From Patescibacteria group bacterium (lineage in GTDB: Bacteria > Patescibacteriota > Minisyncoccia > Phycocordibacterales > SBAW01): DNA of 41,612 nt. How positions within the stretch are numbered: the first letter of the stretch is position 1; each line of letters begins with the position of its first letter. The notes beneath the pieces are model-generated. The model was not told the DNA's origin. It was given only the letters and a program-made list of their open reading frames with translations, and ran no database searches. The position numbers were made by a program, and so were the translations under genes. The stretch spans positions 1 to 41,612 of the forward strand of contig JAGWIT010000003.1 of the NCBI GenBank assembly GCA_028866155.1, read 5' to 3'. Below are positions 2,543 to 9,952 of this stretch, one piece after another.

Positions 2543-2560
2543 AATAGTAAAGTTACTATT
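2543..2560. terminator. AT-rich palindrome between convergent genes
   Basis: AATAGTAA and TTACTATT form an inverted repeat with a two-base loop between the recombinase stop and the stop of the convergent permease gene. It could work weakly as a bidirectional terminator, but the stem contains few GC pairs. Confidence 0.3.
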
Positions 2561-3779
2561 CGTATCGCAATGCTTCAATGGGGTTGAGATTGGCCGCGCG
2601 GCGTGCTGGAAAATACCCAAAGACAATGCCGATGCCTGCAGAAACGCCGACCGCGAGAAGCACCGAGGACGTAGTGACTGTCGCGGTCAAAAGTCCTGTC
2701 AGCGTCACTGCATATGAAATAAGATATCCGAGCACCACTCCTATAATGCCACCCACCATAGTAAGCGCCACGGCCTCAGCAAGAAATTGCATGCTGATAT
2801 CCCGTTTTTTTGCGCCTATCGCTTTGCGTAGACCGATCTCTTTTGTTCTCTCGGTGACCGTAGTGAGCATCATATTCATGATGCCGATACCCCCCACAAT
2901 GAGAGAGATGGACGCAATGGCCGCAAGCAAATACGTAAGGATGGTTGTTATGCTTGAAAGCGTTGATGAGAGGCTGGCTTGGCTTTGAATATTGAAGTCT
3001 GCTTTTGTAGAGTCGGTTATATTGTGCCTCTTGAGCAACAGGCTCGTTATCCCATCTTGCACTGATTGCGAGACATCCGCGCTCGCAGCCTCCACGGCAA
3101 TGGAACTCACAAATTGGTTGCCGGTAATCATCTGTTGTGCGGTGGAGAGGGGAATATATGCGGCACTATCAGGATTGGTGAATCCCGAGCCTCCTTTTGC
3201 TTTGGTAACGCCTATTACCGTGAATTCAAGATTATTAAAACGGACCGTCTGCCCGATAGCTTCCGCACCTACTCCAAAAAGATCCTGACTTAAGGTCGGC
3301 CCTAGCACCACCACCCTAGAAAGACTTTGGTTATTCTTATCAGAGATAAATGACCCTTCCTGCATTTCTACATTGTGGACCGTTGCATAGACCGACTGTA
3401 CTCCATATATAGAGCTATTGGAGTTAGCGTTGGCGGCAACAATCTGTTGATTGCTGCTTACCTCCGGAGAAACATTTGCCACTCCCGACACACGATCTTG
3501 TATCGCGGTAGCATCAGCGACCGTCAAACTCTGCGCCGACCCTGCACTGCCTCTCACCTGGGTGCCTGGCCCCCTCGCTGCACCAGCCGAAACAGTCAGA
3601 AGATTCGAACCAAGACCCTGGATACTCGATTGGATTGAACTGCTCGTACCGTTGCCAACTGCAAGCATCACAATGACCGACATAATACCAATAACAATAC
3701 CAAGCACCGTGAGCCCCGAGCGTGATTTGTTGCTCAGGAGTGCAGCCGCAGTCTCTCGATATAAATTTTTGATGGTCAT
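2556..3779 (-). CDS. MacB-like ABC transporter permease (FtsX domain)
   Basis: The 407-residue membrane protein has one N-terminal helix (about 22-45), a large extracytoplasmic MacB-type periplasmic-core domain (about 50-270), and three C-terminal helices typical of FtsX permeases. The conserved coupling segment ERTKEIGLRKAIGA is present, and the protein ends in PIEALRYE, the usual C-terminus of this family. With the ATPase and adaptor next door it forms a MacAB-like exporter for peptides, toxins or lipid-like substrates. Its ATG overlaps the ATPase stop by four bases (3776-3779), which indicates translational coupling. Substrate unknown. Confidence 0.93.
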   Translation of the reverse strand: MTIKNLYRETAAALLSNKSRSGLTVLGIVIGIMSVIVMLAVGNGTSSSIQSSIQGLGSNLLTVSAGAARGPGTQVRGSAGSAQSLTVADATAIQDRVSGVANVSPEVSSNQQIVAANANSNSSIYGVQSVYATVHNVEMQEGSFISDKNNQSLSRVVVLGPTLSQDLFGVGAEAIGQTVRFNNLEFTVIGVTKAKGGSGFTNPDSAAYIPLSTAQQMITGNQFVSSIAVEAASADVSQSVQDGITSLLLKRHNITDSTKADFNIQSQASLSSTLSSITTILTYLLAAIASISLIVGGIGIMNMMLTTVTERTKEIGLRKAIGAKKRDISMQFLAEAVALTMVGGIIGVVLGYLISYAVTLTGLLTATVTTSSVLLAVGVSAGIGIVFGYFPARRAANLNPIEALRYE

Positions 3780-4489
3780 AGTAGTGCGTGATCGACAACT
3801 TTTTGTTTAGTGTTCTTTTTGTCCTCGATGATGAGCCCGTCTTTAATTGAAATGACTCGATCGGCGTGGTGTGCAATATCGGAATCATGAGTGATGAGTA
3901 TAATGGTGGCCCCATGCTCCTTATTGAGCTGCTGGAAGGTCCCCAGGACAATCTCTCCCGTTTTTGAATCAAGGTTTCCTGTGGGCTCGTCCGCCATGAT
4001 GACCGAGGGGTTATTGACGAGTGAGCGAGCTATTGCGACGCGCTGTATCTGTCCTCCTGAAAGCTGGTTTGATTTAAAATTCCACCGCTCCTCTGGAAGT
4101 CCGGCGGCACGCAGAGCTTGTGCAGCTCTTCCGTCATGCTCCGCATCTGGCACGCCTGAATATACGAGCGGTAGTGTTACGTTGCGCATAACAGTTGTAC
4201 GAGACAAGAGATTGAATGATTGAAATACAAACCCTATCTGATTCGATCGTACATCGGCGAGCTGGTTGTCGGAAAGTTTTGACACGTCCCGACCATCGAG
4301 AAAATAACTCCCTGAGGTTGGTGTATCGAGACAACCCAAAATATGCATCAGAGTGGATTTGCCAGAACCCGAAGGGCCGGTGATGGCAACAAATTCGCCG
4401 TCCTCAATCTTGAAGGACACACCCTTTAAAACGGTGGTTTCCTCATCGCCATTCTTGTATACTTTTGTAATATTTTTGCATTCAATCAT
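3776..4489 (-). CDS. MacB/LolD-type ABC transporter ATPase
   Basis: This is a 237-residue nucleotide-binding protein. Walker A is GPSGSGKST (about 38-46), the Q-loop lies in VFQSFNLL, the signature is LSGGQIQRVAIARS, Walker B is VIMADEPTG, and the switch histidine is in ITHDSD. The Q-loop and signature match the MacB/LolD/FtsE class that powers FtsX-type permeases. It hydrolyses ATP on the cytoplasmic face and works with the overlapping permease gene. Nine bases separate it from the upstream adaptor gene, so all three are one transcription unit. The C-terminal tail (DKKNTKQKVV) is dispensable-looking. Secure assignment. Confidence 0.95.
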   Translation of the reverse strand: MIECKNITKVYKNGDEETTVLKGVSFKIEDGEFVAITGPSGSGKSTLMHILGCLDTPTSGSYFLDGRDVSKLSDNQLADVRSNQIGFVFQSFNLLSRTTVMRNVTLPLVYSGVPDAEHDGRAAQALRAAGLPEERWNFKSNQLSGGQIQRVAIARSLVNNPSVIMADEPTGNLDSKTGEIVLGTFQQLNKEHGATIILITHDSDIAHHADRVISIKDGLIIEDKKNTKQKVVDHALL

Positions 4490-4498
4490 GGGAGTAGA

Positions 4499-6169
4499 TT
4501 ACGCTCCGGGGCCGGAGAGTAATCCTCCCGAAGCTGCTTTAGTAGCGCCGGTCACTGTGTGCGTCACTATGAGTTCGCCTTCGGTAAGCCCTGAAGTGAT
4601 GACGGTGTTTTTATTGTCCGAGTCTCCAATCTGGACAGAGACGCTTTTGGGCGCAGTGGTGAGAGAAATCGTTGCACCATCGGCAGCGCCGGAGACACCG
4701 TCGAGCACCAGTACATTCGAGTTTGAACCCACACTTGTTACGGCTGAATTCGGCACCAATAGGACACCTACATCTTTGCCAACCGCGATCGTTACTGAAA
4801 CACTCATACCTGGCTTCACACCCTGATCACTCGCATCGAATGCAATCTTTGCATTGTAACTCACGACTCCTTGCGTCACGGTGCCAATGGTATCTATCTG
4901 GGCGACCGTGCCTGTTGCCGTTACGCCCGGCAATGCATTAAAGGTAACCTTTGCTGTTTGTCCGATCTTGACCTGAGCGGCATCAACTTCATTCAGCGAA
5001 ATCTTGGCGATTTGCTGTTTGGTGATAATACTTGCCACGACAGTATTTGTATCCACGACGGCACCCACCGAAACATTTACCGCAGCAACCACGCCGCTGA
5101 AAGGAGCTCTGATAAAACTCTGGTCGTACGTATTCTGTGCCGCCTGCAAAGCAGCCTTACTATTGTCGAGTGAGGCTTGTGCGCTTGCGATGTCCTCCGA
5201 ACGCGCTGGGGCCGTGGTCTGTGCAAGCGACGCGTTACTTTGTGCAAGAGATGACTGTGCAGTCGTAACTTGTTGCAGCGCAGATTGTACCGCACTAATA
5301 TCGGACATAATGGTTGATCGGCCAGAATTAATTGATCCTGTATAGGTTGCCGCTGAAGAGCTGTTTGTCTCGTAAGTAGTGAGGTCAGATAAAATATCAT
5401 TAAGATACTGAAGAATAGTATTGAGATTATTCGTGCTTACCGAAGAAAGTGTTGTTAAGTCGCCTGTCGCATCCGCAGTGCCGATACTGCTATTCCATTG
5501 AGGTAGCAGCGCATTTATTTGTTCTCTTTCATTAACGATATTTATAACTAATTGGCTATTGGTTGAATTCGAGTTTGAAACACCGTATTTAGGGTTTATT
5601 GTATTTGGATTGCTAAATAATGCATTGGTGTCAGTGGTTACTACTGAAGATGCGTCGTTGTATGAGGACGATATTTTGCTGAGCAATGATTGTTTTGCAT
5701 TGGTGAGAGAAGTCTGACTCGAGCTTACGGCGGATTGAGAAACTGCGATACTTTGTACGGTCGCTCCACTTACGACTTTGTCGTAGCTAGCTTGGGCGCT
5801 TTCGACGTTTGCCTGCGCCTGTTTGAGCTGAGTAAGAGCGCTTGCATTCCCTATAACCGCTATAAGTTGGTTGGTGACGACCTTATCTCCCTGCTTCACG
5901 TCTACTGCTGTAATAGTCGAAGCTGATTGAGTGGTGCCCTGCGGCTTAAGATCCACCTGATTTTCCGCTTCTACTTGGCCCGTGCCATTGACGGTAAGCA
6001 CGAGGTCCCCCTTGGTTACGGTGCCCACTACATAACTTGTTGCAGATGAGCCGCCAAATACTGTTTTATATCCAAAAAATAATACGATAATAAGAAACAC
6101 TCCCGCAAAAACTGCGGCAACTTGATGGGTCTTTATCCAAATAATAAGCTTCGTGTATATATTTTTCAT
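4499..6169 (-). CDS. MacA/HlyD-type membrane-fusion (adaptor) protein
   Basis: The 556-residue protein has one N-terminal TM helix (about 17-37) and a split biotinyl-lipoyl domain (TVTKGDLVLTVNGTGQVEAENQ ... SFIRAPFSGVVAAVNVSVGA). The halves are separated by an unusually long alpha-helical hairpin rich in Ser, Gln and Ala (about 100-345). A beta-barrel and membrane-proximal domain follow (TAKVTFNALPGV, LLVPNSAV). Such adaptors link an ABC permease to the envelope exterior. In a presumed single-membrane CPR cell there may be no outer-membrane partner, so the long hairpin could span the wall or contact a surface layer. The gene overlaps the AbrB-like gene by four bases and precedes the ATPase. 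Confidence 0.9.
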   Translation of the reverse strand: MKNIYTKLIIWIKTHQVAAVFAGVFLIIVLFFGYKTVFGGSSATSYVVGTVTKGDLVLTVNGTGQVEAENQVDLKPQGTTQSASTITAVDVKQGDKVVTNQLIAVIGNASALTQLKQAQANVESAQASYDKVVSGATVQSIAVSQSAVSSSQTSLTNAKQSLLSKISSSYNDASSVVTTDTNALFSNPNTINPKYGVSNSNSTNSQLVINIVNEREQINALLPQWNSSIGTADATGDLTTLSSVSTNNLNTILQYLNDILSDLTTYETNSSSAATYTGSINSGRSTIMSDISAVQSALQQVTTAQSSLAQSNASLAQTTAPARSEDIASAQASLDNSKAALQAAQNTYDQSFIRAPFSGVVAAVNVSVGAVVDTNTVVASIITKQQIAKISLNEVDAAQVKIGQTAKVTFNALPGVTATGTVAQIDTIGTVTQGVVSYNAKIAFDASDQGVKPGMSVSVTIAVGKDVGVLLVPNSAVTSVGSNSNVLVLDGVSGAADGATISLTTAPKSVSVQIGDSDNKNTVITSGLTEGELIVTHTVTGATKAASGGLLSGPGA

Positions 6170-6360
6170 GATTTCTTTATACGTCGCACCACTTCGTCTG
6201 ACTTTAGTATAACCACGCCACTAACATCTCGATCGCTCATGATTACCACACGGGTACCAGGTTTCCAGCCAAGGCTTATCCGGGCCTCAGATGGAATGAC
6301 CACCTGGCCCTTGGCGTTCAGCACCGCTGTTCCATAGATTTTGGATATCGAAGATGTCAT
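6166..6360 (-). CDS. AbrB/SpoVT/MazE-type DNA-binding protein
   Basis: This 64-residue protein carries the swapped-hairpin AbrB core (AVLNAKGQVVIPSEARISLG, then KPGTRVVIM), close to full length for a one-domain member. It is the first gene of the MacAB-like operon and overlaps the adaptor start (ATGA), so it probably regulates that operon. No toxin partner is adjacent, which argues against a MazE antitoxin role. The promoter-like element at 6367-6397 ends only six bases before the ATG, so its transcript would be leaderless or nearly so. Confidence 0.85.
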   Translation of the reverse strand: MTSSISKIYGTAVLNAKGQVVIPSEARISLGWKPGTRVVIMSDRDVSGVVILKSDEVVRRIKKS

Positions 6361-6366
6361 GCAAAT

Positions 6367-6397
6367 ACTAATACATACTTGTAGTACTTTTATTACA
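6367..6397 (-). promoter_or_regulatory. Shared sigma-type promoter element, copy before the abrB-macAB operon
   Basis: Read on the minus strand: TGTAATAAA, 15 bases, then TATTAGT, with ATG immediately before the second box. The same two boxes at the same distance precede three other transcription units (7530-7560, 8913-8943, 8956-8986). Six bases separate the second box from the start codon at 6360, so transcription would begin at or very near the ATG. Confidence 0.6.
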
Positions 6398-6503
6398 TGT
6401 TGATCAAAATATACTGTATTAGAGCCCCAGTATGGGCTGGGTTGAGGATTTTAACGCGGCGAGAATTAATCCGGTTAGCAATCGCGGGGGTGTACCACCC
6501 TCC

Positions 6504-7217
6504 TCATGGAGTATAGCTCGTGCCCTGCATGCTGTTTACGAGCTTGATAGTGGCTGGACCGAATATGCCAGAACCTTGCGTAAGTCCATTAGGGGTTAGA
6601 ATATCTGCTGCGTGTGCATTCTGAAAGCGAATCAGGGCTTTCTTTGTACCGCTTCCAAAATAGGTGGTTTCATTACCGATTGAACCAGTACCGCTTGTAG
6701 CAATAATGAAGCCGTTGGAATTAAGGAAGACCTGAAGCGCTTTGACATCTGCCCCGGTCATGCCTTGTTTAAGTGTCCGCGTGAATACAGTTTGAGATGT
6801 AGTAGTTCGCGAATTTTGTTGAATCGTAGGTCGAGTGCTCGACGCGATACCTTGAGGCCTTGGTCCAATGCCGTCATGGATTGATGTTGCTGCAATATTC
6901 GTACCACTTACTGTTCCTTCAATCATAACAATGTCACCTACAGAGATGTCGGATAGGGACGCGCTGAGATTACTCTTAGTTACTGTAGCGCCAGATGCAT
7001 TAATGGTATACGTGGTCGCTGAAGTATTTTGTCCGAACGCCATGCTCTGCACCGTGAGAATCGTGCCATTTATAGACAAAACGGTCCCGACAACTCCAGG
7101 AGGCATTCCACCATTTTGTGGAAATGAGGTCTGGGCAAAAGCGATACCACCAATAAATAGAGATCCAAGGACTGCACTACCCGTAAGGAATCTTAAGAGA
7201 GTATTCCTGATATTCAT
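6504..7217 (-). CDS. Secreted DUF5666-type protein with peptidoglycan-binding domain
   Basis: The 237-residue product has a signal peptide (about 1-28, ending near IAFAQ). An OB-like DUF5666-type domain follows (VVGTVLSINGTILTV ... VGDIVMIEGTVSG, about 40-115), and then a C-terminal PG_binding_1-like domain (TLKQGMTGADVKALQVFLNSNGF ... KALIRFQ ... GPATIKLV). It should act outside the membrane, bound to peptidoglycan. It lies 16 bases after the small TM gene at 7234 and probably shares that promoter (7530-7560). The related secreted protein at 9065 carries two copies of the first domain. Target and exact function unknown. Confidence 0.75.
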   Translation of the reverse strand: MNIRNTLLRFLTGSAVLGSLFIGGIAFAQTSFPQNGGMPPGVVGTVLSINGTILTVQSMAFGQNTSATTYTINASGATVTKSNLSASLSDISVGDIVMIEGTVSGTNIAATSIHDGIGPRPQGIASSTRPTIQQNSRTTTSQTVFTRTLKQGMTGADVKALQVFLNSNGFIIATSGTGSIGNETTYFGSGTKKALIRFQNAHAADILTPNGLTQGSGIFGPATIKLVNSMQGTSYTP

Positions 7218-7233
7218 ATTTTAGTTAATCGCT

Positions 7234-7479
7234 TTACTGAGTAACTGGGCCTCCTGTTTGACCTTGGTTGGTAGGCGCTGGTTGAGAGCCTTGTTGCGGT
7301 ACGCCCTGACCGTGTGAGGTCGGGTTAAATCCGCCTTGACGCATAGAGCCAGGTGGCATGCCGCCGGGACCCGGTCTGCCAAAACCAGAAAAAATAACAA
7401 AAACAAGTGCGAGGAACAGCACGATCGTCGCAAAAAAGAATTTGACGCTATGCTTCTGTGAGAACTCTCTTATTGTCAT
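7234..7479 (-). CDS. Small single-TM protein with Gly/Pro/Gln-rich tail
   Basis: The 81-residue protein has a short basic N-terminus, one hydrophobic helix (about 14-33), and a low-complexity tail rich in Gly, Pro and Gln (GRPGPGGMPPGSM) that would be outside the cell. No family is recognised. It is the first gene after the shared promoter element at 7530-7560 (50-base leader) and precedes the secreted DUF5666/peptidoglycan-binding gene, so the pair likely makes an envelope component induced by the local sigma factor. The compositional bias is real and not due to a shifted frame, because the TM segment is in the same frame. Confidence 0.55.
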   Translation of the reverse strand: MTIREFSQKHSVKFFFATIVLFLALVFVIFSGFGRPGPGGMPPGSMRQGGFNPTSHGQGVPQQGSQPAPTNQGQTGGPVTQ

Positions 7480-7529
7480 ATGTAGTTAAATAGACAGTTA
7501 TTAAATAAGGAGAAAATACCCCTTGTTTA

Positions 7530-7560
7530 AGTAATACACTTAGGGTTTTGAATTATTACA
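7530..7560 (-). promoter_or_regulatory. Shared sigma-type promoter element, copy before 7479
   Basis: On the minus strand: TGTAATAAT, 15 bases, then TATTACT, with GTG just before the second box. Spacing is identical to the copies before the abrB operon and the sigma gene. It drives the small TM/DUF5666 pair with a leader of about 45 bases that includes AAGGAG. Confidence 0.6.
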
Positions 7561-7577
7561 TACGCCTTACGACAGTC

Positions 7578-8333
7578 TTACATTCCGCCTGGGATACTAG
7601 GTGGTGGGGGTAGATCATTAGCATTCTTAATATCTTGCGCTTGAATCTTTCCATCTATCATTTTTCCTTGAATAAAAATCCTATCTCCGACTTTTTCTTG
7701 AACTATTATCTGGCCAGAAGGCACCATGACCGTCACGGCAGTCGTAGTACTAGTATCCATCGGATTCAAGAGTGCTATAACCAGCGTGTCGCCCTCGATG
7801 CTGGTTATTGTCCCGAGAAAGATACCGTGCCCTGGCGGCGGCAACCTTCGGGCATTTTCGTACAAATTTCCAAAGGGCGGGGGTAAATGCTTTTGATCAG
7901 CTTGTCGCAAAAGCATGTCGTGCAAGGGTGTCTTGTCTATCACAAAACCCGATACCGACATTACAAAGATTACGCCTCCCAAAAGATAGAGTACAGGAAC
8001 CTTGTAACCAAATTTAAACGACCTAAGCAGGTACTGAAGAAGTATGATCAAACCAATTTCCAAGGTAGAAAGCCCCCAAGGGAATAGGAAGAGAAAGACT
8101 TGCCAACCCGCTGGACCGAAACCAATGAGAGAAGCTTGTCCGCTCGCCCGTATGGTAAAAAGAATGAAACTTGAGAGAAAAACCGATACTACAAGCACCG
8201 CAACCACAACAAGTATAAATGCGGCAAATCGCAGCCTAAAATATGTCTTTGGCGTAAGGGTCAGTTCATTCTTCCTGATCTTCTCAAGAATGTTCTGAAT
8301 CTTGTCTTGCGGTATAGGCTGTTTATTGTTCAT
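7578..8333 (-). CDS. Three-TM membrane protein co-translated with sigma factor; possible anti-sigma
   Basis: The 251-residue protein starts with a short soluble helix-rich segment (about 1-35, EKIRKNELTLTPKTYF). Three membrane helices follow (about 36-60, 74-100, 112-133), then an external OB-like segment (GIFLGTITSIEGDTLVIALL ... VGDRIFIQGKMIDG) like the DUF5666-type domains nearby. Its start overlaps the sigma-factor stop by 11 bases. ECF sigma genes are commonly followed by a membrane anti-sigma factor whose cytoplasmic part holds the sigma. Position and topology fit that role, but no known anti-sigma motif (such as a zinc-binding ZAS) is visible, so the role is inferred. Confidence 0.55.
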   Translation of the reverse strand: MNNKQPIPQDKIQNILEKIRKNELTLTPKTYFRLRFAAFILVVVAVLVVSVFLSSFILFTIRASGQASLIGFGPAGWQVFLFLFPWGLSTLEIGLIILLQYLLRSFKFGYKVPVLYLLGGVIFVMSVSGFVIDKTPLHDMLLRQADQKHLPPPFGNLYENARRLPPPGHGIFLGTITSIEGDTLVIALLNPMDTSTTTAVTVMVPSGQIIVQEKVGDRIFIQGKMIDGKIQAQDIKNANDLPPPPSIPGGM

Positions 8334-8898
8334 AATCCATGTTCATTTTTTTATAAATTTTCCGTAAGGCATCCTTTCCTCGGAGTACCCGCACTGCTAC
8401 CGTACCAGTTGGAATCTGAAGAATGTCCGATATTTCTTTATAACTTAGACCTTCAAGATAGTGAAGAATTATGACTTCTCGGCACTTAGGAGTTAGCTTT
8501 TCTAACCCTTGATCTATCATTTTCTTCATTATCTCGTGATCTCGCTCCTCCACTGCCGGATCTTCGTACGTCATATGAGAGACGAAGGTATCAAGATCGA
8601 GCCCTAAGACGGCGCTGCGCTGCTGGCGCTTCAGTCCGTTGACGAACGCGTTGTGAGCAATTCGGTATATCCACGAAGAGAATTTTAATGACGTGTCAAA
8701 ATTATTTATATTTTGAAAAGCGCTAATAAAAACATCCTGCACTATATCCTCTATATTTTCTTTTTCTGACAAGAATTTTCTACCGTATCGTGAAAGTTTT
8801 TTATCATACCGAGTCATGAGAAGACCATATTTTTCCTTGTCTCCTCCTTGGATAAGCAAAACTATCTGCTCATCGGTAAGTGATGGGAGGTCGTCCAT
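8323..8898 (-). CDS. ECF-type RNA polymerase sigma factor
   Basis: The 191-residue protein has sigma region 2 (ENIEDIVQDVFISAFQNINNF ... FSSWIYRIAHNAFVNGLKR, about 46-95) and region 4 (LTPKCREVIILHYLEGLSYKEISDILQIPTGTVAVRVLRG, about 137-178), with no regions 1 or 3. That is the standard ECF layout and length. It would redirect RNA polymerase to a small set of promoters. Its own upstream region carries the bipartite element shared with three neighbouring units, consistent with positive autoregulation. The following membrane gene overlaps by 11 bases and is the likely controlling partner. Confidence 0.92.
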   Translation of the reverse strand: MDDLPSLTDEQIVLLIQGGDKEKYGLLMTRYDKKLSRYGRKFLSEKENIEDIVQDVFISAFQNINNFDTSLKFSSWIYRIAHNAFVNGLKRQQRSAVLGLDLDTFVSHMTYEDPAVEERDHEIMKKMIDQGLEKLTPKCREVIILHYLEGLSYKEISDILQIPTGTVAVRVLRGKDALRKIYKKMNMDYEQ

Positions 8899-8912
8899 AC
8901 CTAAAGTCTACA

Positions 8913-8943
8913 CTATATACATCCCTCACTATGTATTATTACA
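8913..8943 (-). promoter_or_regulatory. Shared sigma-type promoter element, copy before the sigma gene
   Basis: On the minus strand: TGTAATAAT, 15 bases, then TATATAG, with ATG before the second box. It lies 14 bases before the sigma start, so the leader would be short. It sits back to back with the plus-strand copy at 8956-8986, 12 bases away. Confidence 0.6.
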
Positions 8944-8955
8944 TTTAACGACTAA

Positions 8956-8986
8956 TGAAATAATGTTGCGTGCCTGGTGTAGTAGT
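8956..8986 (+). promoter_or_regulatory. Shared sigma-type promoter element, copy before the 9065 gene
   Basis: On the plus strand: TGAAATAAT, 15 bases, then TAGTAGT, with GTG before the second box. It differs by one base in the first box and one or two in the second from the other copies. It points to the secreted DUF5666 gene starting at 9065, with a leader of about 70 bases. Confidence 0.5.
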
Positions 8987-9064: not shown

Positions 9065-9748
9065 ATGAAAACTAGCATTAAAAGCAAACTATTCATTATC
9101 CCCATGCTCGCAGTAGCGCTTGCTGGTGGAGCGGCGGCTGGTATAAGCGGTATAGCAAGTGCTTCGACTTCTACCAATACTGCAACTCAAACTTTCACTG
9201 ATCACGGTCATAGAGGCATGGGTCCGGGTATTGTCGGCACTGTCTCGGCAGTTAACGGCGATTCTCTAACGGTGGCGGGTAAAAATGGCACCACTTATAC
9301 CGTTGATGTTACCACTGCGACAGTCATGAAAAGCAGCGGTGCAGGTAGTGCTCCCACTACTGTAGCCATTAGTGATATCGCAGTAGGCGACACTATCATG
9401 GCGCAGGGCACTGTAAGTGGTACTAGCGTAACGGCAACCAATGTCATGGATGGTCAATTCTTTGGCGGCCCGCATGGCGGCCCGGGTGGTATGGGCGGCG
9501 TAATGGGCACTGTCTCGGCAGTTAACGGTACAACTATTACCGTTACTGGTCAGAACGGCGGCACGTATACCGTTGACGCATCAAGCGCTACAGTTAATGA
9601 AAATGGAAGCACCTCCTCTCTCTCCAACGTCAAAGTCGGCGATACAGTACGTGTAGGAGGCAGTATTACCACCGCTTCGATGACTGCAACAAATATCGAC
9701 GATGGCATACCACAGGCTCCAGCACAAGCAACAGGTACTGCTCAATAA
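9065..9748 (+). CDS. Secreted protein with two DUF5666-type domains
   Basis: The 227-residue product has a signal peptide (about 1-34, cleavage near ASAST) and a His/Gly spacer. Two tandem copies of a small beta domain follow: GIVGTVSAVNGDSLTV ... VGDTIMAQGTVSG (about 55-128) and GVMGTVSAVNGTTITV ... VGDTVRVGGSI (about 145-210). A Gly-rich hinge (GGPHGGPGGMGG) separates them. The same domain occurs in the peptidoglycan-binding protein at 6504. It is transcribed divergently from the sigma gene, carries a copy of the shared promoter element, and ends in a strong terminator. No enzymatic residues are evident; a structural or ligand-binding envelope role is likely. Confidence 0.75.
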   Translation: MKTSIKSKLFIIPMLAVALAGGAAAGISGIASASTSTNTATQTFTDHGHRGMGPGIVGTVSAVNGDSLTVAGKNGTTYTVDVTTATVMKSSGAGSAPTTVAISDIAVGDTIMAQGTVSGTSVTATNVMDGQFFGGPHGGPGGMGGVMGTVSAVNGTTITVTGQNGGTYTVDASSATVNENGSTSSLSNVKVGDTVRVGGSITTASMTATNIDDGIPQAPAQATGTAQ

Positions 9749-9767
9749 AACATAATTAGTGCAAAAC

Positions 9768-9802
9768 AAAACACCGCCCATTATAGGCGGTGTTTTGTTT
9801 TC
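9768..9802 (+). terminator. Intrinsic terminator after the DUF5666 gene
   Basis: AAAACACCGCC (9768-9778) pairs with GGCGGTGTTTT (9786-9796) around a 7-base loop and is followed by GTTTT. A strong, nearly symmetric terminator. Confidence 0.9.
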
Positions 9803-9848
9803 CTTACTGGGCATTGACGCGTCTCGAGCGCGATGACCTAGCTCAGGT

Positions 9849-9936
9849 TGGCGGAGACGAGAGGATTCGAACCTCTGATGGGTTGCCCCATGCCGGTTTT
9901 CGAAACCGGTGCATTCGACCACTCTGCCACGTCTCC
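9849..9936 (-). tRNA. tRNA-Ser (anticodon CGA)
   Basis: On the minus strand the gene starts GGAGACGTGGCAGAGTGG and ends CGTCTCCG plus an encoded CCA. The anticodon stem CCGG...CCGG carries loop TTTCGAA (anticodon CGA). A long variable arm (GCATGGGGCAACCCATC) marks a class II tRNA, and the T arm has GGTTCGAATCC. The acceptor GGAGACG/CGTCTCC is fully paired. It borders the accessory island on its left side. Confidence 0.95.
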
Positions 9937-9952
9937 TTGTTTTTACAGTGCC

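Follow-up and report, generated by a model that had tools for sequence, protein, structure and literature searches.

A two-box element around an ECF sigma factor gene

Which factor reads the two-box element that recurs before four transcription units around a gene for an extracytoplasmic function (ECF) sigma factor in a Patescibacteria genome? The stretch of DNA analyzed here, referred to as the window, spans 41,612 nucleotides (nt) of contig JAGWIT010000003.1 (assembly GCA_028866155.1) from a Patescibacteria group bacterium of the order Phycocordibacterales. An original prediction had proposed that the element marks a local ECF sigma regulon. Our analysis makes it very probable that the ECF sigma factor encoded at 8323-8898 uses the element as its -35/-10 promoter. 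This sigma factor is probably held by a putative anti-sigma factor with three transmembrane (TM) helices, and the genes behind the element would form an envelope-responsive regulon. Coordinates are window positions except where a second contig of the genome, C63, is named. The four elements, with mismatches in the genome scan and matrix scores, and the two central genes are as follows:

6367-6397, minus strand: element 1, TGTAATAAA-N15-TATTAGT; 0 mismatches, 18.0 bits; upstream of the abrB-macAB operon, 6 nt from the abrB-like start codon
7530-7560, minus strand: element 2, TGTAATAAT-N15-TATTACT; 0 mismatches, 20.5 bits; upstream of a gene pair encoding a TM protein and a DUF5666-like protein
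8913-8943, minus strand: element 3, TGTAATAAT-N15-TATATAG; 3 mismatches, 10.9 bits; upstream of the sigma gene, 14 nt from its start codon
8956-8986, plus strand: element 4, TGAAATAAT-N15-TAGTAGT; 0 mismatches, 22.0 bits; divergent, upstream of a gene for a secreted protein with two DUF5666 repeats
8323-8898, minus strand: ECF sigma factor, 191 amino acids; Sigma70_r2 3.7e-16, Sigma70_r4_2 8.6e-17
7578-8333, minus strand: probable anti-sigma factor, 251 amino acids, three TM helices; 11-nt overlap with the sigma gene

All four box pairs lie where the original prediction had placed them. In each, 15 bases separate the 9-mer from the 7-mer, and ATG or GTG stands ahead of the second box. Its consensus, TGWAATAAW-N15-TAKTAST, is matched exactly at three sites; the site before the sigma gene is weaker, with TATATAG as its -10 and three mismatches. 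The 15-base spacing, which had been described as fixed, is constant within the window, but relatives use either 15 bases or one base more. In a scan of the window, the four elements agreed with the consensus at 16 to 17 of 17 positions, and the runner-up agreed at 14.

In many relatives the start codon lies near the -10, at a distance of 1 to 19 nt. Because start codons are often this close, several of the predicted transcripts would be leaderless or nearly so, and the abrB-macAB transcript from element 1 is predicted to be near-leaderless. An additional, weaker element, TGTAAGACTGTCGTAAGGCGTATGTAATA, was observed at 7554-7582 on the minus strand (16.0 bits). Its -10 overlaps the -35 of element 2, and the two may form tandem promoters.

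Good matches are confined to two sigma loci of the genome

We scanned the genome (899,657 bases, 96.6% complete) with the reversed sequence as control. Allowing up to 3 mismatches to the full consensus, exactly three matches without mismatch were found genome-wide, all within the window; every remaining match had 3 mismatches, and these were about as frequent as in the reversed control. A shorter consensus, allowing at most 1 mismatch, returned six genome matches, namely the three exact window sites and three stray ones, and none in the control. With one more base of spacing, the genome held three matches, all on contig C63.

The C63 matches belong to a second, paralogous sigma locus (L056, 7113-8445 of that contig), in which a sigma factor 54% identical to that of the window is followed by a paralogue of the 251-amino-acid TM protein (39% identical). 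There, elements with one base longer spacing than those of the window precede a divergent gene for a glutamate/leucine-type dehydrogenase (GDH) and, behind the anti-sigma paralogue, a gene for a protein with an FMN-binding domain. The third match (8290-8319 of C63, minus strand) lies inside the sigma coding sequence and was set aside as probably due to chance.

Good matches are thus restricted to the window locus and its paralogue. The original prediction had named equal frequency before unrelated genes as the finding that would point to a housekeeping promoter; instead, the element is absent as a general promoter. The AT-rich boxes, and the TG before a TATTA-like box, do recall an extended -10 promoter of the housekeeping sigma factor. 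However, none of the four sites contains a match to a sigma70-type promoter (TTGACA- and TATAAT-like hexamers 16 to 18 bases apart), the only other good matches in 0.9 Mb are at the paralogous sigma locus, and genomes without the sigma/anti-sigma pair lack the element (see below). We consider a housekeeping promoter very improbable.

The element is conserved beside related sigma genes

An unsupervised expectation-maximization (EM) search for a two-block motif, begun from random starting sites in 69 regions upstream of related sigma genes, returned TGAAATA followed by TTGTAtTA, with the spacing of the window or one base more (TGAAATA-N15/16-TGTAnTA). The log-likelihood of this motif was 245, compared with 105 for the best unrelated motif. 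The matrix derived from it detected 99 sites of at least 16 bits in 1.15 Mb of neighborhood sequence and 3 in the reversed sequence.

This matrix was trained on part of the neighborhood data, and we used the window-derived pattern and loci fetched later as independent checks. The window-derived pattern was present upstream of 19 of 68 other sigma genes, compared with 2 of 68 in reverse orientation and 0 of 68 in reversed sequence. It also preceded other genes close to sigma (29 of 400 within 2.5 kb) and almost none farther away (1 of 624). Among sigma genes outside the training set (25, from 28 loci minus three from genomes used in training), 21 carried a correctly oriented element, mostly 34 to 61 nt upstream, and these loci held 46 sites of at least 15 bits versus 1 in the control. 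The element is therefore conserved across the phylum beside orthologues of the sigma gene, as had been anticipated, both by unsupervised motif search and in loci outside the training set. That AT-rich spacers merely resemble one another by chance, an explanation to which the composition of both boxes lends itself, is refuted by the two comparisons with reversed sequence (99 versus 3 and 46 versus 1) and has a negligible probability.

The element also follows the sigma/anti-sigma pair from genome to genome. The pattern TGAAATAN{14,16}TGTANTA had 40 matches in 26 pair-bearing genomes (20 genomes with a match; 9 matches in the reversed control) and 4 matches in 40 genomes that belong to the same order but returned no pair in a protein search (3 genomes; 7 matches in the control). 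Genomes without the pair are thus not above control, and in one of the three apparently pair-less genomes with matches (G081) a more sensitive profile found a distant anti-sigma relative.

These distributions bear on whether the element could instead be an operator through which a separate DNA-binding regulator, such as the AbrB-like protein or one encoded elsewhere, controls the sigma operon together with its neighbors. An abrB-like regulator gene does lie directly behind element 1, and genes other than sigma carry the element. On the other hand, the element lacks symmetry, its two boxes being set at a promoter-like spacing that tolerates one extra base; it points toward the gene (19 of 68 forward versus 2 of 68 reverse), with the second box often 1 to 35 nt from the start codon in relatives; it tracks the sigma/anti-sigma pair; and the abrB-like protein was not a best match among the genes behind the sites in relatives. 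An operator of this kind is improbable.

A closer contender is another sigma factor of the genome, either the C63 paralogue or an unrelated ECF-like sigma, which would act on the four sites either instead of the local sigma or in addition to it. The C63 sigma shares 54% identity with the local one, its own locus carries the element with one more base of spacing, and both spacings occur within one locus in relatives. Spacing was accordingly rejected as a separator of two paralogous regulons, since the two spacings mix in relatives (14 of 23 loci uniform, 10.6 expected, p ~0.10). Against such sharing, the element adjoins whichever member of the sigma clade is present, and for the remaining sigma factors of the genome the scans returned no matching site. 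Autoregulation is moreover the rule in ECF systems (PMC8103513). We regard use of the sites by another sigma factor as unlikely. The window sigma factor may be positively autoregulated through element 3, a motif that is weak in the window and present upstream of sigma in many relatives.

One sub-branch of relatives within the order (L142-L154) has TGAAAG in place of TGAAAT. We looked for covariation of this sixth -35 base (T or G) with sigma residues and rejected the result as confounded by ancestry; the window sigma departs from the single region-4 column of interest in that analysis.

The sigma factor and its probable anti-sigma factor

The window sigma consists of regions 2 and 4 only, with Sigma70_r2 at residues 27-94, Sigma70_r4_2 at residues 127-178 and a linker of about 32 residues. 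Its closest NCBIfam models are those of SigW, with scores of 126.3 bits (cut-off 209, NF007223) and 118.5 bits (cut-off 243, TIGR02948), below both equivalog cut-offs. In early work ECF promoters were characterized by AAC in their -35 box and CGT in their -10 box, a definition that has since been abandoned (PMC8103513). The window-type element departs from it, with AAT (AAG in the sub-branch) and TGTA.

Both the sigma gene and the three-TM gene, which the original prediction had left out of its mechanism, were found in 66 loci, and in every one they adjoin on the same strand. The start of the second gene ranges from 35 nt ahead of the sigma stop codon to 26 nt past it in 65 of these, the exception being L129, with a doubtful start. 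Another 28 loci, most of them outside the order, have the same strand and gene order. Relatives of the 251-amino-acid protein were found in 73 of 397 genomes of the order, and its profile matched 97 of 380 genomes sampled from the phylum, about a quarter. A profile search with the anti-sigma alignment placed relatives of the locus in Parcubacteria group bacterium Greene0714_7 and Candidatus Paceibacterota bacterium Chersky_89.

This protein comprises a basic, conserved N-terminal segment of about 30 residues, three hydrophobic helices and a C-terminal beta domain. Because a short inner segment, TM helices and an outer beta domain are the layout of a membrane anti-sigma factor, it is likely an anti-sigma factor with its N terminus inside and a sensor outside, although anti-sigma family searches returned no match at threshold. 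The protein scored 14.6 bits against PF18914 (DUF5666), below the gathering score of 27 bits; 8 of 49 homologues matched DUF5666 at E values up to 0.1 (best, 1.3e-4), and hhalign gave probabilities of 81 and 89%. By these comparisons the outer domain resembles DUF5666, which is a resemblance and not membership.

Several observations weigh against the element being the promoter of a sigma factor controlled in this way. The sigma gene's own element is the weakest of the four (10.9 bits versus 18 to 22, with TATATAG as the -10), although sites at the same position are strong in relatives. Of the 69 related sigma genes, about 44%, including some from divergent branches, have no clear element in the region searched (the EM motif was estimated to be present in 56%). 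In the TGAAAG sub-branch the base after TGAAA is G, and specificity may differ there. Finally, about 30 cytoplasmic residues before the first TM helix are too short for a class I anti-sigma domain, an N-terminal four-helix domain averaging about 100 residues (PMC7406223). Class II anti-sigma factors such as CnrY of Cupriavidus metallidurans bind sigma2 and sigma4 through a short two-helix segment on the inner side (PMC7406223). The inner segment of the window protein is of class II-like length, with one short helix predicted in an AlphaFold2 (AF2) model of low confidence (mean predicted local distance difference test score, pLDDT, 59.5). By analogy, a class II (CnrY-like) anti-sigma factor is possible.

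Genes behind the element in the window and in relatives

The genes behind elements 1, 2 and 4 are as follows:

6166-6360, minus strand: AbrB/MazE-like DNA-binding protein, 64 amino acids; first gene of the exporter operon
4499-6169, minus strand: MacA/HlyD-type adaptor, 556 amino acids, by family scans
3776-4489, minus strand: MacB/LolD-type ABC ATPase, 237 amino acids, by family scans
2556-3779, minus strand: MacB-type permease (MacB_PCD + FtsX), 407 amino acids, by family scans
7234-7479, minus strand: 81-amino-acid protein, a single TM helix followed by a Gly/Pro-rich tail; opens the unit behind element 2
6504-7217, minus strand: 237-amino-acid exported protein, DUF5666-like domain + PG_binding_1
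9065-9748, plus strand: 227-amino-acid exported protein, two DUF5666 domains (1.1e-10); behind element 4

The two DUF5666 domains of the 227-amino-acid protein pass the threshold in combination. The 237-amino-acid protein is 45% identical to it over 125 residues, with a DUF5666 score of 18.5 bits, below the cut-off, and a PG_binding_1 match of 1.9e-8. The 81-amino-acid protein had no family match in protein family scans. Directly behind the 227-amino-acid DUF5666 gene, inspection by eye revealed a perfect GC-rich hairpin followed by a T run (9767-9803, plus strand; CAAAACACCGCC-cattata-GGCGGTGTTTTG TTTT). This hairpin, which the terminator scan did not list, is likely a terminator, so the DUF5666 unit behind element 4 is probably a single gene. 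What looks like a serine-type tRNA gene, again judged by eye, lies beyond it (9852-9937, minus strand).

Most target scans reached about 10 kb to the left and right of the sigma gene. In these neighborhoods, sites of at least 16.5 bits precede genes for sigma (30), DUF5666 proteins (11) and MacA-type adaptors (4), as well as 31 further small proteins whose N terminus includes a hydrophobic stretch, a class assigned by a crude rule. The original prediction had joined export and DUF5666 genes as targets of one sigma factor, and both classes carry the element in several other genomes. Named exported targets in relatives include PepSY, cytochrome b5-like and FMN-binding proteins. Genes for ApbE, glucose-6-phosphate dehydrogenase and a glutamate-type dehydrogenase carry the element at some loci as well; the ApbE and glucose-6-phosphate dehydrogenase targets in relatives, together with the C63 locus, hint at a redox branch.

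In the L142-L154 sub-branch, the element precedes a family of exported proteins of about 125 amino acids (..GDPxVKGPNYSxERHxAMxKAFExKDYxAWK..), for which we found no convincing Pfam match. Elsewhere in the window genome, six further DUF5666 matches were observed on contigs C24, C49, C60, C39, C19 and C65, none of them where the element was found, so the family is not only under this sigma factor. DUF5666 occurrence proved a weak marker of the sigma factor, being present in genomes with and without the pair.

A candidate envelope-responsive regulon

Taken together, the confinement of the element to sigma loci, its conservation beside sigma orthologues and its recurrent targets support a local ECF sigma regulon. 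In the mechanism that we propose, the sigma factor would be made together with the three-TM protein, which would hold it at the membrane. An envelope signal acting on the outer DUF5666-like domain would release it, and free sigma would then transcribe its own operon, with positive feedback through the weak site, along with the operon of the MacAB-like exporter and the genes for secreted DUF5666 and peptidoglycan-binding proteins. The physiological role would be a response to envelope or redox stress. A DUF5666-like domain in both the predicted sensor and the secreted proteins that it would induce suggests possible feedback. A bolder version, which we hold only tentatively and think rather doubtful, is that this is a new kind of ECF system found throughout Patescibacteria, with a minimal cytoplasmic clamp and an outer sensor homologous to the DUF5666 proteins that it induces. 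If so, sensor and products could be competitors for one ligand, closing a feedback loop.

SigW and RsiW of Bacillus subtilis form an envelope-stress system, and SigW promoters read TGAAAC-N16-CGTA. The window system is similar in several respects: its sigma factor also consists of regions 2 and 4, with the SigW models closest; its promoter layout is TGWAAT-N16-TGTA; a membrane partner gene lies directly behind sigma; and the targets are of envelope type. It differs in having T for C in both boxes (TGAAAT for TGAAAC, TGTA for CGTA), in a sigma factor below the SigW equivalog cut-off (126 versus 209 bits), and in a partner that has three TM helices but only a very short stretch inside, and outside a DUF5666-like domain, in place of a zinc-type class I anti-sigma domain. 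That partner shares with CnrY (class II, PMC7406223) a short cytoplasmic N-terminal segment before a membrane helix; however, it has three TM helices and an outer beta domain, and only one short inner helix is predicted, in a low-confidence model.

The exporter operon resembles MacAB of Escherichia coli in combining an HlyD/MacA-type adaptor, a MacB-type ATPase and a MacB_PCD/FtsX permease. In contrast to E. coli, the ATPase and permease are separate genes, and the operon has an AbrB-like leader gene and an ECF-type promoter. With respect to PF18914, the 227-amino-acid target has two DUF5666 domains and the 237-amino-acid target is a clear relative, whereas the outer domain of the anti-sigma factor is below the family cut-off.

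ECF systems are well known as a kind, and a regulon with this promoter appears undescribed in Patescibacteria. Our literature search, which did not extend to the main ECF classification, found no ECF regulon or promoter described for the phylum, and a published ECF group for this sigma factor may already exist. In the literature searched, DUF5666 was mentioned in just four papers. Members of the Patescibacteria are tiny and abundant, hardly any have been cultured, and very little is known of how they sense their environment. A promoter code linked to a single sigma/anti-sigma clade would allow candidate envelope-stress regulons to be read directly from genomes, and would assign DUF5666 and several other uncharacterized secreted families to a likely inducible envelope response.

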